Positions 14,849 through 19,385 of a stretch of 64,000 nt of DNA are shown one piece after another. A program made the position numbers and the translations under genes. The notes under the pieces were generated by a model. It ran no database searches and was not told the origin of the DNA. It saw only the letters and a program-made list of their open reading frames with translations. Origin of the DNA: Rothia sp. SD9660Na (GTDB lineage: Bacteria; Actinomycetota; Actinomycetes; Actinomycetales; Micrococcaceae); the NCBI RefSeq assembly GCF_030064065.1, contig NZ_CP125946.1:1054001-1118000 (forward strand), given 5' to 3'. How positions within the stretch are numbered: the stretch's first letter is position 1; each line of letters starts with the position of its first letter.

Positions 14849-15073
14849 ATGACCACCAAAATTAGTATCAGCTTAGCGGACGAAACGGTTGAGGCTCTCG
14901 ACCGTTTTATCGCACAAAGGAAATTTGCTTCTCGGTCATCTGCCATTAAAGCAGCCATTGATCAGATGACATCCGTAGACCTCACTGATGAATACGCCAG
15001 AGCACATCGGGAATGGGCAGAGTCTGGTGAAGAAGATGTGTGGGGTCAGACTTCAGGAGACGGTCTTGTATGA
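14849..15073 (+). CDS. Ribbon-helix-helix antitoxin of a MazEF-like pair
   Basis: 74 residues. The N-terminus TKISISLADETVEALDRFI is a ribbon-helix-helix DNA-binding pattern (beta strand then two helices); the acidic C-terminal part would wrap the toxin. It overlaps the toxin start by 4 nt (ATGA), the normal antitoxin-toxin coupling. Expected to neutralise the toxin and repress the operon. ATG start. Confidence 0.85.
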   Translation: MTTKISISLADETVEALDRFIAQRKFASRSSAIKAAIDQMTSVDLTDEYARAHREWAESGEEDVWGQTSGDGLV

Positions 15074-15417
15074 GACGAGGTGACGTCTACTGGGTAGATT
15101 TTGAGCCTGCCCGAGGGAGTGAGCCCAACAAGAAAAGGCCTGCCATCATCGTGAGTAGGGATGAATCGAATACTTATGTAGCCCATCACGGTATCGGGAC
15201 ACTGACGGTTGTTCCATTGACCTCTAATACTAGATTTATTGCTTCGTTTCAGGTGCTCTTGGCCCAGGACGAAACCGGCCTATCTACCGACTCAAAAGCC
15301 CAAACAGAACTTATAAGAACAGTATCTGTGGATCGTATCGGCGACTATATAGGTACCTTATCGAGAAATAAAGTTTGGGAACTAGATGAGGCTTTGAAAG
15401 TTCATTTGAATCTGTAA
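15070..15417 (+). CDS. MazF/PemK-family endoribonuclease toxin
   Basis: mRNA interferase of the MazF family. Seen: MRRGDVYWVDFEPARGSEP, KKRPAIIVSRDE, TVVPLTSNT, KAQTELIRTVSVDRIG and LSRNKVWELDEALKVHL, covering the whole fold; 115 residues, normal. ATG at 15070 lies in the antitoxin stop with AGGAG about 10 nt upstream. The earlier in-frame ATG at 15040 is less likely. Appears intact, so the pair is probably functional. Confidence 0.9.
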   Translation: MRRGDVYWVDFEPARGSEPNKKRPAIIVSRDESNTYVAHHGIGTLTVVPLTSNTRFIASFQVLLAQDETGLSTDSKAQTELIRTVSVDRIGDYIGTLSRNKVWELDEALKVHLNL

Positions 15418-15848: not shown

Positions 15849-15919
15849 GACGAAAGTGCGTCATATCGCTGAGCGTGCACCTGCCATGTGCACGGTGGGC
15901 GATATGACGCACTTTCGTC
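15849..15919. repeat. 71-bp palindromic element with 21-bp perfect arms
   Basis: Arms 15849-15869 and 15899-15919 are perfect reverse complements over 21 bp. Between them lie two copies of the palindrome GTGCAC (15875-15880, 15888-15893), which also pair with each other. No ORF and no U tract, so it is not an ordinary terminator. It sits 74 bp left of the IS insertion. Nothing else recognised in 15819-15984. Confidence 0.75.
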
Positions 15920-16691
15920 AGATAGGCAACGTAGCCTAATGCGAACTAAGGGTAAAAGGGTGATTCAGCATCAACCACTTAGGTCTATTTGAGGGTTATA
16001 GGCAGAAAAGTGTGTCCCCAACACCCCCACAACCCAACAACCACAAGACAACCAACCCCACACATTAGCCCCACAAGCTAACCTAAACCAAGTGAGCCCA
16101 AAAACCCCACATGCCTGATATGCAACCAACGAACCAAACGCAACGGCACCACCAGCGCAGGAACCACACGCTACCGCTGCACCCACTGCGGCGCCAGCAG
16201 AACCATCAAACGCCCCACCAGCACACGCAAACACCAACTAGCAGCCTTCATCACCTGGCTCACCAGTAAAAACACCCAGTAACACACCACCCTAGGAGCT
16301 GGACGAACCTTCCGCGCCAATACCGCCTGGTGCTGGAACATCACCCCACCAATCAAACAAACAGGCCAAATCCACCACGAAATCCAACTCGATGGCATCT
16401 ACATCAGCGGCATGGTCTGCATCATCGCCTACAACCACAGCGTTGGTGTCATCGACTACCAATGGGCTAAAAATGAGAACACCGCAGCCTACCAAGCTTT
16501 ACTCTCACGCATCCCAGCCCCAGATGTAGCCATCGTAGATGGCGGGGCTGGCTTTGCCAGCGCCGCCAAAACATGCTGGCCAGAAACACGGATCCAACGC
16601 TGCCTAGTGCACATTTATAGAAACACCAGAGCCCTGCTCACTAGCGCCCCACGCACTGAGGCTGGCAAGTCCTTATTAAAGATTTCTAGAG

Positions 16692-18029
16692 GGGACTGTC
16701 AGGAAAACGGTGTACCCCCCCCAACCCCAACAGGAGAAAATAACACCATGACAACAGAACACCAACTCGCCCAAAACCTCATCACCCAAGCCAAAGAACA
16801 AGGCCTAGACCTCAGCAGCGACACCCTACTCAAAACCCTCACCCAAGACATCATCCAAGCTGCCCTCGACGAAGAACTCACCGACCACCTCGGCTACCCC
16901 AAACACGCCGAAAACCCCAACCAGACAAGCCAAAACACCAGAAACGGCTACCGCACCAAAAGAATCCTCACCGACACCGTCGGCCCCATCGACATCAAAG
17001 TCCCCCGCGACCGCGACGGCTCCTTCGAACCGACCATCGTGCCCAAACGAGCCCGTCGACTCAAAAACGTCGATGAAATCATCCTCTCCCTGGCCGCCAA
17101 AGGACTCACCTACGGTGACATCGCAGCCCACTTCGAGCAAATCTATGGGGCCAGCATCAGTAAAGACACCATCAGCCGTATCACCACAACGGTCCTTGAC
17201 CAGATGAATGAATGGGCCGCCAGGCCCCTAGAAACGGTCTACCTGGCTGTGTTTATCGATGCAATCTACCTGAAAGTCCGCGAAGGGCAGGTAAGCAACC
17301 GCCCCTTCTACGTGGCTATGGGAGTCAACGTCGAAGGCGCTAGGGATGTGTTAGGAATCTGGGCAGGCCCTGAAGGGGCAGGCGAATCAGCCAAATTCTG
17401 GCTACAGATCCTGACCGAGCTGAAGAACCGTGGCACCGCTGATATCTTCTACCTGGTCTGTGATGGGCTCACCGGCCTGCCTGAGGCCGTGAATGCGGTC
17501 TATGAACGCACGATTGTGCAAAACTGCGTCATTCACATGATCCGCAATTCCATGCATTACGCCCCCAGGCAGCACTGGGAGGCGATTTGCCGGGATTTGA
17601 AGCCGGTCTATCAGGCGGTGACCGAGCAGGCTGCGCAGGCGGCTTTGGAGGCCTTTGGGCAGAAGTGGGATGAGAAGTACCCGGCTATTAGTGCTTTGTG
17701 GTGGCGTCGCTGGGAGGAATTTATTCCTTTTTTGTCGTATGAGATGGAGGTTCGTCGGGTGTTGTATTCGACGAATGCGATTGAGTCTTTGAATGCTAGG
17801 TTGCGGCGTTCTGCCAGGTCGCGTGGGCATTTTGTGTCTGAGGAGTCAGCTTTGAAGTTTATGTATTTGACGGTTCGGTCTTTGGATCCTTCAGGTGCTG
17901 GTGCCCGGCGGTGGATGACTCGGTGGAAGCCGGCATTGAATGCTTTTGCTATTGTTTTTGGTGATCGGTTGCCGCAGGTGGCTGGTCGCTAGATTTGTTG
18001 TGGGTTTACACCGTTAATCTGACAGTCCC
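16692..18029 (+). mobile_element. Inner insertion sequence, IS256 family, apparently intact
   Basis: 1338 bp bounded by imperfect inverted repeats beginning GGGACTGTCAG (left) and the complement of CTGACAGTCCC (right), three mismatches in the first 23 bp. Flanked by an 8-bp target duplication TTCTAGAG (16684-16691 and 18030-18037). It carries one full-length transposase and is inserted in the same orientation inside the older IS. Family assignment rests on transposase type and duplication length. Confidence 0.93.
16748..17992 (+). CDS. IS256-family (mutator-type) transposase
   Basis: 414 residues, full length for the family. Seen: N-terminal DELTDHLGYPKHA-type region, TVGPIDIKVPRDRDGSFEP, DDE catalytic segments FIDAIYLKVR, LVCDGLTGLPEAV and STNAIESLNARLRR, and the QNCVIHMIRNSM motif characteristic of mutator transposases. 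ATG at 16748 is chosen; the frame stays open upstream to 16412 only because it runs in from the interrupted outer transposase. Presumably active. Confidence 0.93.
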   Translation: MTTEHQLAQNLITQAKEQGLDLSSDTLLKTLTQDIIQAALDEELTDHLGYPKHAENPNQTSQNTRNGYRTKRILTDTVGPIDIKVPRDRDGSFEPTIVPKRARRLKNVDEIILSLAAKGLTYGDIAAHFEQIYGASISKDTISRITTTVLDQMNEWAARPLETVYLAVFIDAIYLKVREGQVSNRPFYVAMGVNVEGARDVLGIWAGPEGAGESAKFWLQILTELKNRGTADIFYLVCDGLTGLPEAVNAVYERTIVQNCVIHMIRNSMHYAPRQHWEAICRDLKPVYQAVTEQAAQAALEAFGQKWDEKYPAISALWWRRWEEFIPFLSYEMEVRRVLYSTNAIESLNARLRRSARSRGHFVSEESALKFMYLTVRSLDPSGAGARRWMTRWKPALNAFAIVFGDRLPQVAGR

Positions 18030-18635
18030 TTCTAGAGCCCTTCTACGAGTAACCAGCTTGGATGAAGCAGCGATCTGGTCAGCCTCTTTAGCGTCCTGGC
18101 ACTCGCAGTATCAAGGCTTTATCAAGGAGAGAACCTGGTTATCTGATGGTTCTTGGCAGTACACCCATGAGCGTGTGCGTACTGCCTATAGGAGGCTTGA
18201 GCGTTTGGTGAAACAGGGTGTTGTGTTTACTTTTCTAGATTCAGACTTGCTCAGGGAGGGTTCTATTTCTCGTACCACGAATCACATAGAAGGCTATAAC
18301 GCGAAAATTCGTGCCATGTTGCGCGAGCATCGTGGAATGCCGGTGGAGCATCAGTGGCGGGCTGTGGGGTGGCTTTTGTGGGTGGATGCGGCTTGGGGTG
18401 CCAGTGTTGATGAGGTGATTAGGTTGGAGCCGGTGCCGGTGGTTGCTCTTGCTGGTCGGAGGAAGGAGGCTGCTGTGGGGCGTTCTTTGGATGAGTTGCG
18501 GGGTGTGTTTGTTGTGGGTGAGGGTGTGGTGGTGCGGCGTGGTTGGGGTGGTCGTGGTGGGTGACGCGCCCGGGGTGGGACACACTTTTCTGCCTATAAC
18601 CCCTATTTGAGGCGGCATGATGCTGTTAAGATAAA

Positions 18636-18665
18636 AACGTACCGGGCAAATCTGCCCGGTACGTT
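18636..18665 (+). other. 5' stem-loop of the small-peptide transcript
   Basis: Perfect 13-bp stem AACGTACCGGGCA / TGCCCGGTACGTT with an AATC tetraloop. It ends 7 nt before the ribosome-binding segment of the 37-residue ORF. A -10-like TAAGAT lies at 18627-18632, which would start the RNA close to this stem. It could instead be a terminator for transcription arriving from the IS. Confidence 0.6.
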
Positions 18666-18692
18666 CAAAAATCAAATAGAGGAGGTTTAGAA

Positions 18693-18806
18693 GTGGTAAC
18701 GACACTTCTGAACCTAGTTCTGATTCTAGCTGCGCTGGTAGCGATTGTCGATAGCCTTTTGAGCATCGTCGAGAAGCTTCTGAAGCTGCTAGATAACGAG
18801 GACTAG
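18693..18806 (+). CDS. 37-residue hydrophobic peptide, candidate type I toxin
   Basis: Not a recognised family. GTG start with AGGAGG 7 nt upstream; 37 codons. The peptide is a short polar start, a continuous hydrophobic helix (residues about 5-27, LLNLVLILAALVAIVDSLL) and a charged amphipathic end (VEKLLKLLDNED), the composition of small membrane-acting toxins. The ribosome-binding segment CAAATAGAGGAGG (18673-18685) is perfectly complementary to CCTCCTCTATTTG (18842-18854) in the 3' part of the same transcript, so the full-length mRNA would hide its start. Toxicity and any antisense regulator are inference. Confidence 0.6.
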   Translation: MVTTLLNLVLILAALVAIVDSLLSIVEKLLKLLDNED

Positions 18807-18814
18807 GAATATAG

Positions 18815-18854
18815 GGTGCAGAGGCCTCGGTCTCTGCACCGCCTCCTCTATTTG
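18815..18854 (+). promoter_or_regulatory. 3' hairpin plus anti-Shine-Dalgarno segment
   Basis: A 9-bp hairpin GGTGCAGAG / CTCTGCACC (18815-18840) is followed at once by CCTCCTCTATTTG (18842-18854), the 13-nt perfect complement of the upstream ribosome-binding region at 18673-18685. The terminator stem starts 3 nt later. This would form a long-distance 5'-3' helix. Confidence 0.6.
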
Positions 18855-18856
18855 AT

Positions 18857-18895
18857 AAACGCCCTCAACTCTTATTGAAAGGGTTGAGGGCGTTT
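18857..18895. terminator. Bidirectional terminator
   Basis: 13-bp stem AAACGCCCTCAAC / GTTGAGGGCGTTT with a 13-nt loop containing CTT/AAG. Lies between the + strand small-peptide unit and the - strand DUF3817 gene, and can serve both. Confidence 0.75.
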
Positions 18896-18914
18896 CGTTA
18901 GGCGAAAGTAGTTG

Positions 18915-19385
18915 CTAGTTCTTGGGCACGGGCGGGCCCGCCAGCAGGAGCACCACGAAGAGCAGAACCACAAAGGCAAGCAACAGGGCGCTGGCCAGGG
19001 CGGGCTTGGCCAGGACCCAGGCCTGGGCTTTCTCGAACAGGCCGGACGGCGCCGCCCCACCAGGTGCCAGACGCCAGCCCCCGCGCAGTAGGCCCCGCTT
19101 ATCGAGGAAAAGCTCAAAGGGAACCGTCGCAAAGGGAATCACCGACAGCAGCAGACCCGCGATGCCCACGGGAGCCTTCCACTGCTGGTTCACCCAGGTA
19201 AAGACAGTCACCACGCAGTAGCTCAGAAAAACAAACCCGTGAATACCACCGGCAATGGGCACAATATTGGTTACGCCGGTACCCCGCAGAATCAGGGCCG
19301 TAATGAGCAGAGCCCAGGTGATCATTTCAGCGGTGGCAAAAGTACGGAAGAGCGCCCGAGGGGTGGGCTTAGAATCTGGTCGCAT
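18915..19385 (-). CDS. DUF3817-type integral membrane protein
   Basis: 156 residues. Seen: transmembrane segments about 18-37, 45-65, 73-92 and 130-150, with the actinobacterial DUF3817 pattern AEMITWALLI, GGIHGFVFLSY and PFATVPFELF. Function unknown. The C-terminal helix (ALASALLLAFVVLLFVVLLL) follows a Gly/Pro linker and is an addition to the core domain. ATG start. Shares the 18857-18895 terminator with the facing unit. Confidence 0.85.
   Translation of the reverse strand: MRPDSKPTPRALFRTFATAEMITWALLITALILRGTGVTNIVPIAGGIHGFVFLSYCVVTVFTWVNQQWKAPVGIAGLLLSVIPFATVPFELFLDKRGLLRGGWRLAPGGAAPSGLFEKAQAWVLAKPALASALLLAFVVLLFVVLLLAGPPVPKN

Follow-up and report, generated by a model that had tools for sequence, protein, structure and literature searches.

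The stretch of Rothia sp. SD9660Na DNA analysed here (64,000 nucleotides, referred to as the window) probably carries a type I toxin-antitoxin module composed of two fully nested RNA genes, a predicted mRNA for a putative toxin and a predicted antisense RNA, which would act as an addiction module. Support at the sequence level comes from complementarity, covariation, coding selection, promoter- and terminator-like sites, and the prophage-like setting of two copies. The sequence-only reading of this DNA had already likened the locus to a type I toxin unit, and covariation, a conserved peptide and a predicted antisense RNA now support this view, the toxin being putative. The unit comprises the following features:

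18624-18632, plus strand: extended -10 of the predicted toxin mRNA, TGTTAAGAT, read from the sequence, with the mRNA start expected at about 18636-18639
18636-18665, plus strand: 5' hairpin of 13 bp with a 4-nt loop, on the minus strand the predicted terminator of the antisense RNA
18671-18685, plus strand: 5' arm of the predicted lock, consisting of an A/U-rich linker and the Shine-Dalgarno (SD) sequence, with 15 Watson-Crick pairs to 18842-18856
18680-18685, plus strand: SD AGGAGG, read from the sequence
18683-18715, plus strand: start-codon hairpin of 13 bp with a 7-nt loop (18696-18702), holding the end of the SD and the GTG
18693-18806, plus strand: putative toxin ORF with GTG start and TAG stop, encoding a hydrophobic peptide of 37 aa, under purifying selection in comparison with locus L009
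18714-18722, plus strand: 5' arm of an inner stem, CCTAGTTCT, closing the ORF against the stop region in MFE folds
18799-18807, plus strand: AGGACTAGG, spanning the stop codon and forming the inner stem's 3' arm in the fold
18814-18840, plus strand: 3' hairpin between stop codon and anti-SD, with a strong hairpin at this place in 7/7 intact units
18842-18856, plus strand: 3' arm of the predicted lock (anti-SD), from the 15-nt complementarity and cross-pairing among groups
18860-18899, plus strand: mRNA terminator hairpin (18860-18892) with a short T tail, from hairpin inspection
18751-18723, minus strand: antisense promoter-like site, with -35 TCGACA (18751-18746), a 17-nt spacer and -10 TAGAAT (18728-18723), from a promoter scan and a recoding test
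about 18716 down to about 18630, minus strand: predicted antisense RNA (antitoxin) of about 87 nt, from promoter and terminator prediction

Among 35 genomes of the genus, members were recognised at 9 places in 7 genomes. Seven are intact, namely the window copy, L008 (genome G014), L009 and L029 (G011), L039 and L080 (G030), and L068 (G016); the remaining two, L010 (G002) and L011 (G028), are deleted forms missing the 3' half. Since the window copy and L008 are nearly identical, the intact members were counted as six sequence groups. These share ancestry, so that counts over the groups are not independent, which has to be held against our explanation.

The lock is formed by ATCAAATAGAGGAGG (18671-18685) and CCTCCTCTATTTGAT (18842-18856), a 15-nt Watson-Crick match plus one G-U pair. 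A 13-nt complementarity pointed out in the sequence-only reading is real and forms part of this longer match. Its judgement that such a match is not expected by chance also held. Both strands of the window contain 254 candidates, counting every possible start of an ORF of 20-60 aa that has an SD-like motif, and the runner-up reached 9 nt of SD-arm complementarity. For a cross-pairing test, the 36-nt stretch ending two bases before the start codon was combined with the 85 nt after the stop codon in all 36 combinations of the six groups. The arms vary in sequence between groups, and the own partner was best in 6/6 rows and 6/6 columns, with own-pair energies of -29.7 (window), -20.8 (L009), -29.8 (L029), -27.3 (L039), -31.1 (L068) and -19.2 kcal/mol (L080). 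The pairing suspected earlier, for which a check of co-conservation in related genomes had been proposed and a failure of the arms to co-vary named as refuting, is hence kept in six groups, whose arms co-vary with different letters.

The strength of the lock differs between groups. Per 1000 mononucleotide shuffles of the 3' region, 0 (window), 128 (L009), 2 (L029), 3 (L039), 0 (L068) and 44 (L080) paired as well, so that the locks of L009 and L080 are weak in this test; arm pairing no better than shuffles in L009 and modestly better in L080 speaks against our explanation. Perfect pairing of at least 13 nt is found in three groups (window, L029, L068), and the locks of L009, L039 and L080 contain G-U pairs or bulges. 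A further point against is that an ungapped Watson-Crick match of at least 11 nt occurs in just 3/6 groups (window, L029, L068) and, by chance, also at the unrelated locus L017. An SD-sequestering 5'-3' long-distance interaction, as is characteristic of aapA/IsoA, is present, in L009 and L080 in a weak form.

Signals for the toxin mRNA were found on both sides of the unit. The extended -10 (TGnTAnnAT) is present in 4/6 groups (window, L009, L029, L080), and only its TAnnAT-like part lies upstream of L039 and L068. There is no clear -35 at standard spacing, and the promoter scan of 18400-19100 omits the site. A terminator had been placed behind the 3' arm; a hairpin (18860-18892) does exist there, with only a short T tail, and is absent from the results of the terminator scan. 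The 5' and 3' hairpins framing the unit were both recovered, the former at 18636-18665 and the latter as 18814-18840. When the RNA from 18634 to 18896 was folded, as had been suggested, it reached -149 kcal/mol vs -74.9 +/- 5.0 kcal/mol for 200 shuffles (z -14.9). Preference of hairpin arms for their own partner was seen in 5/6 rows and 5/6 columns for the 5' hairpin, in 5/6 rows and 4/6 columns for the start-codon hairpin and, as weak support, in 3/6 rows and 4/6 columns for the inner stem. The weak preference of the inner-stem arms counts against our explanation. The start-codon hairpin is formed in 7/7 intact units (-14.3 to -19.0 kcal/mol). Its loop has 7 nt in 6/7 of them and 5 nt in L068, and judged from the sequence it is a possible kissing site for the antisense RNA. 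According to the folds, the 3' hairpin is likely to be the border that would remain after 3' trimming. The 3' hairpins of L009, L029 and L068 have a recurring core GGGGTAGCTCCC, and L080 has GGTAGTCCC; this core could be an RNase or protein site.

Folding of growing transcripts in the six groups, which describes equilibrium only and does not capture kinetics, predicts hiding of the SD, its locking by the 3' arm and its opening after trimming. At transcript lengths of 60-75 nt the SD is mostly open in five groups (unpaired probability 0.45-0.97; L039 0.24-0.29), and at 90-140 nt it is mostly paired in these equilibrium folds (0.00-0.47). Opening rises at 200-210 nt in 5/6 groups, with L039 reaching 0.25, and the SD closes once the 3' arm is present in the folded transcript. 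The unpaired probability of the SD is 0.00-0.26 at full length vs 0.25-0.97 after a cut behind the 3' hairpin, and that of the linker 0.02-0.49 vs 0.84-0.99. Two results argue against our explanation. The SD of L039 does not open freely at any stage (unpaired 0.29 at most), and trimming leaves the start codon paired in each of the six groups (unpaired probability 0.00-0.02), so that initiation would presumably need a ribosome waiting on the linker.

In the sequence-only reading no antisense RNA was visible. A candidate can nevertheless be recognised, since a minus-strand promoter-like site at 18751-18723 is accompanied by a terminator. This site is the sole one in 18400-19100 in a consensus scan (shuffles 0.2 +/- 0.4), and the 5' hairpin is listed by the scan as a minus-strand terminator. 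In 7/7 intact units it is followed on that strand by a T-rich tail, 4 to 7 of the first 8 bases being T. The predicted antisense RNA has a length of 85-96 nt in 7/7 intact units, covers linker, SD and start codon of the mRNA, and is made up of three parts: a hairpin facing the start codon, a linker facing the SD, and the terminator. In 6/6 groups the best minus-strand promoter-like site within the ORF has the same location and a 17-nt spacer, the -10 being located at ORF bases 31-36 or 34-39. The scores sum up to 57 of 72, which was reached by 0/5000 synonymous recodings based on the codon usage of 34 window ORFs; the best recoded scores were 55 at any site and 54 at the fixed site. Single promoters are moderate (9-10 of 12 per group, fixed-site chance 0.004 to 0.20), which counts against our explanation. 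The antisense strand at 18635-18705 also gave a sub-threshold match to PtaRNA1 (Rfam RF01811; 21.3 bits, E 0.054).

The coordinates of the ORF (18693-18806) and the strong AGGAGG given in the earlier reading were verified. The peptide, for which that reading had asked for conservation, is conserved, and its ORF is under purifying selection. Between the window and L009, 24 of 111 bases differ, 8 at first, 0 at second and 16 at third codon positions, corresponding to dN 0.093 and dS 0.985. The peptide has a best 15-residue hydropathy of 3.09, and identity of the other peptides to it ranges from 97% down to 24%. Nothing above cut-off was found in Pfam, NCBIfam, PHROGs and PDB sequences, and the peptide family, unrecognised before, thus matches none in the former three. 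A cationic C-terminus is found in the majority of membrane type I toxins described, according to the part of the source cited (PMC8309996). A net charge of -3 for the window peptide and of -5 to +1 for the six others computed therefore speaks against our explanation.

A protein search yielded 8 proteins, for two of which a source is named, Rothia sp. LK2588 and Rothia terrae. The genus search gave 28 places, of which seven strong and two weak ones (L068, L080) are the members. L069, L070, L071, L072 and L081, also weak, were inspected and are not members, and the remaining 14 (E 0.10-0.86) were judged by ungapped-match and energy screens only. Outside the genus no member was recognised in the samples searched, which gave only weak matches, many inside long ORFs. 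These searches comprised one peptide against 149 relatives, protein profiles against 295 family and 396 order genomes, and the nucleotide profile R2 against 395 family and 384 class genomes; the samples overlap, and the filters applied above 40 genomes can lose weak matches. In 21 weak loci (L101-L115, L119, L120, L145-L148) screened for a small ORF whose SD is locked without gaps, no lock exceeded 7 nt. Because this screen would miss members like L009, L039 or L080, 40 weak loci from the genus and beyond were rescreened by the energies of lock, 5' hairpin and start-codon hairpin. The 7 intact units passed, as did 12/40 weak loci, so that the energy screen is not specific. The peptides of the weak loci that passed are unrelated as judged by eye; L114 is the end of a long ORF, L147 lacks such a unit, and L119 was inspected and is not a member. 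At the gathering score, Rfam finds nothing in the window except two tRNAs, and at E up to 10 the unit gives 13 sub-threshold matches. The unit has no match in plasmid and phage records, and in IMG/VR scans only two G011 contigs match, with none for one further group.

These two contigs, carrying L009 and L029, are both contained in IMG/VR. The two copies sit between a holin-like gene and an integrase in two prophage-like regions, both of which have tape-measure, amidase, holin-like and integrase genes; a search for the major head protein found it in L122 only. The copies in L124, L125, L126 and the window are located among ordinary chromosomal genes, on the evidence of ORF lists and of Pfam hits for a few neighbors. 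Downstream of the window unit, a DUF3817 protein is encoded convergently on the opposite strand (18915-19385). This neighbor is matched in 15 genus genomes, ten of which were compared at the locus. The unit is absent in six (G021, G005, G012, G018, G027, G011) and present in four, as such in G000 and G014 and in the deleted form in G002 and G028. These deleted copies, L010 and L011, share an identical deletion that removed the lock and the C-terminal half of the peptide and retained the predicted antisense gene, in L011 with one extra base between antisense -10 and -35. Judged from their sequences, they are in the state expected for an orphan antitoxin.

Several other elements were observed in the vicinity. 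Upstream of the unit, Pfam assigned 16412-17992 to a Mutator-family transposase that begins with MULE-like sequence; it is followed by an ORF without Pfam hit (17995-18564) between transposase and unit. The ends of the transposase element (window 15990-18600) have GGTTATAGGCAGAAAAGTGTGTCCC in common and are flanked by the repeat CTATTTGAG; element and repeat reach to about 15 bases upstream of the -10 of the unit. A type II toxin-antitoxin pair (14849-15417), composed of a ribbon-helix-helix protein and a PemK/MazF-like toxin according to Pfam, lies 3.2 kb from the unit. Near the border between occupied and empty site there is a long palindrome, GTGCGTCATATCGC...GCGATATGACGCAC (about 15849-15945), which is also found in other Rothia genomes and has two weaker copies elsewhere in its own genome.

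From these features we infer a course of events extending from transcription through trimming and antisense binding to toxicity and addiction. An mRNA of ~262 nt would be made from the extended -10 at 18624. During its synthesis, the SD would be held by the start-codon hairpin and the CTAGTTCT codons. Once made, the 3' arm (18842-18856) would zip onto 18671-18685 and lock linker and SD, leaving the full-length mRNA inert. Trimming of the 3' end to the 3' hairpin would remove the lock, set linker and SD free and give rise to the translatable form. The antisense RNA of ~87 nt would start from a promoter embedded in the toxin codons and have the 5' hairpin of the mRNA itself as its terminator. 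It may bind linker, SD and start-codon hairpin, beginning with a 7-nt loop-loop contact, and thus stop translation. Upon loss of the element the antisense RNA would decay first, and the short membrane-helix peptide would harm the cell. Such an addiction module may be used by prophages and left behind at chromosomal sites.

The same RNA control could serve a peptide which is not a self-toxin, i.e. a prophage membrane peptide tuning lysis in an antiholin-like manner or blocking superinfection, which would need tight silencing. The position next to a holin-like gene in both prophage-like regions is in line with this, as is a short membrane peptide that is net negative in 5/7 cases computed. Considering the copies among ordinary chromosomal genes (those in L124, L125, L126 and the window, on the strength of ORF lists and few Pfam hits), and that double silencing plus antisense is typical for toxins, we regard this role as unlikely. 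It is even less probable that coding constraint gave rise to the antisense promoter as a side effect and that the unit is a self-locking mRNA without any antisense RNA. The modest score of each promoter-like site, attainable by chance in a single group at up to 0.20, would fit such an origin. Against it stand the common place and spacer in 6/6 groups, the summed score that 5000 recodings never reached, the rightly placed terminator, and the antisense part retained in L010 and L011.

A small ORF with alternative RNA structures also recalls leader or attenuator peptides, which control the gene downstream of them. We give hardly any credence to this, as the next gene (DUF3817) is convergent on the opposite strand and the unit has its own terminator hairpin and occurs in different contexts. 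This reading and that of a plain mobile hairpin were rejected because of the convergent neighbor gene and the coding selection on the ORF.

The closest counterpart of the proposed type I module is aapA/IsoA. As described in the cited parts of two sources (PMC6733600, PMC8309996), both have a small membrane peptide and a full-length mRNA locked by 5'-3' SD pairing; transient SD-hiding hairpins, activation by 3' removal and a cis antisense RNA are further likenesses that are only predicted in Rothia. For aapA3, transient SD-hiding hairpins followed by a long-distance lock and 3' truncation to the active form are reported in the part of PMC6733600 cited, and the predicted folding order of the Rothia unit resembles this. 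Unlike aapA/IsoA, the Rothia unit comes from a different phylum, its peptide is mostly not cationic, its predicted antisense promoter is located within the ORF, and a strong hairpin encloses the start codon itself. The family libraries searched, which may lack an AapA/IsoA model, showed no relation to aapA/IsoA. The hok/Sok system likewise has a cis antisense RNA, which in Rothia is predicted. It differs by the overlapping leader frame mok, of which no counterpart was noticed in the Rothia unit, and by a peptide unrelated according to Pfam and NCBIfam; no Hok family was among the Pfam matches at E up to 1. It is alike in a fold-back lock released by 3' processing (PMC6733600, in the part cited), a release that is predicted here. 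By the Rfam test the unit is not a member of PtaRNA1, with 21.3 bits vs a gathering score of 47, and unrelated families (microRNA, sRNA) score similarly in the same Rfam list, which indicates chance level. Fst/Ldr and PSM-type peptides are likewise short with one hydrophobic segment. Weak Pfam matches to the PSM-delta profile for two relatives (E 0.055, 0.03) remained below curated cut-offs, and no Fst or Ldr families were among the matches at E up to 1.

According to our best reading of the sequences, the Rothia module would work like aapA/IsoA and hok/Sok; the libraries searched gave no indication that it shares its descent with aapA/IsoA. The arrangement has been described in other bacterial groups and apparently not in that of Rothia. 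A 2025 paper confines the type I systems described until then to Proteobacteria, Firmicutes and Tenericutes and adds Cyanobacteria (PMC12390103, in the part cited). Among the matches listed from the open literature, none described a type I system for Actinobacteria/Actinomycetota, Streptomyces/Mycobacterium or Rothia; a first case can be claimed only as far as this literature reaches, because most subscription papers lie outside it. Within these bounds we lean towards regarding the module as the first type I family of Actinobacteria, carried by prophages, with an antitoxin gene wholly inside the toxin gene and an aapA/IsoA-type triple lock reached independently. It is difficult to detect type I systems from sequence. 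If our reading is true, this compact and conserved Rothia case would widen their range to Actinobacteria and extend the 5'-3' lock to an unrelated lineage. Furthermore, the architecture of small ORF, SD lock, shared hairpin-terminator and antisense promoter in the codons would then be searchable without sequence similarity.
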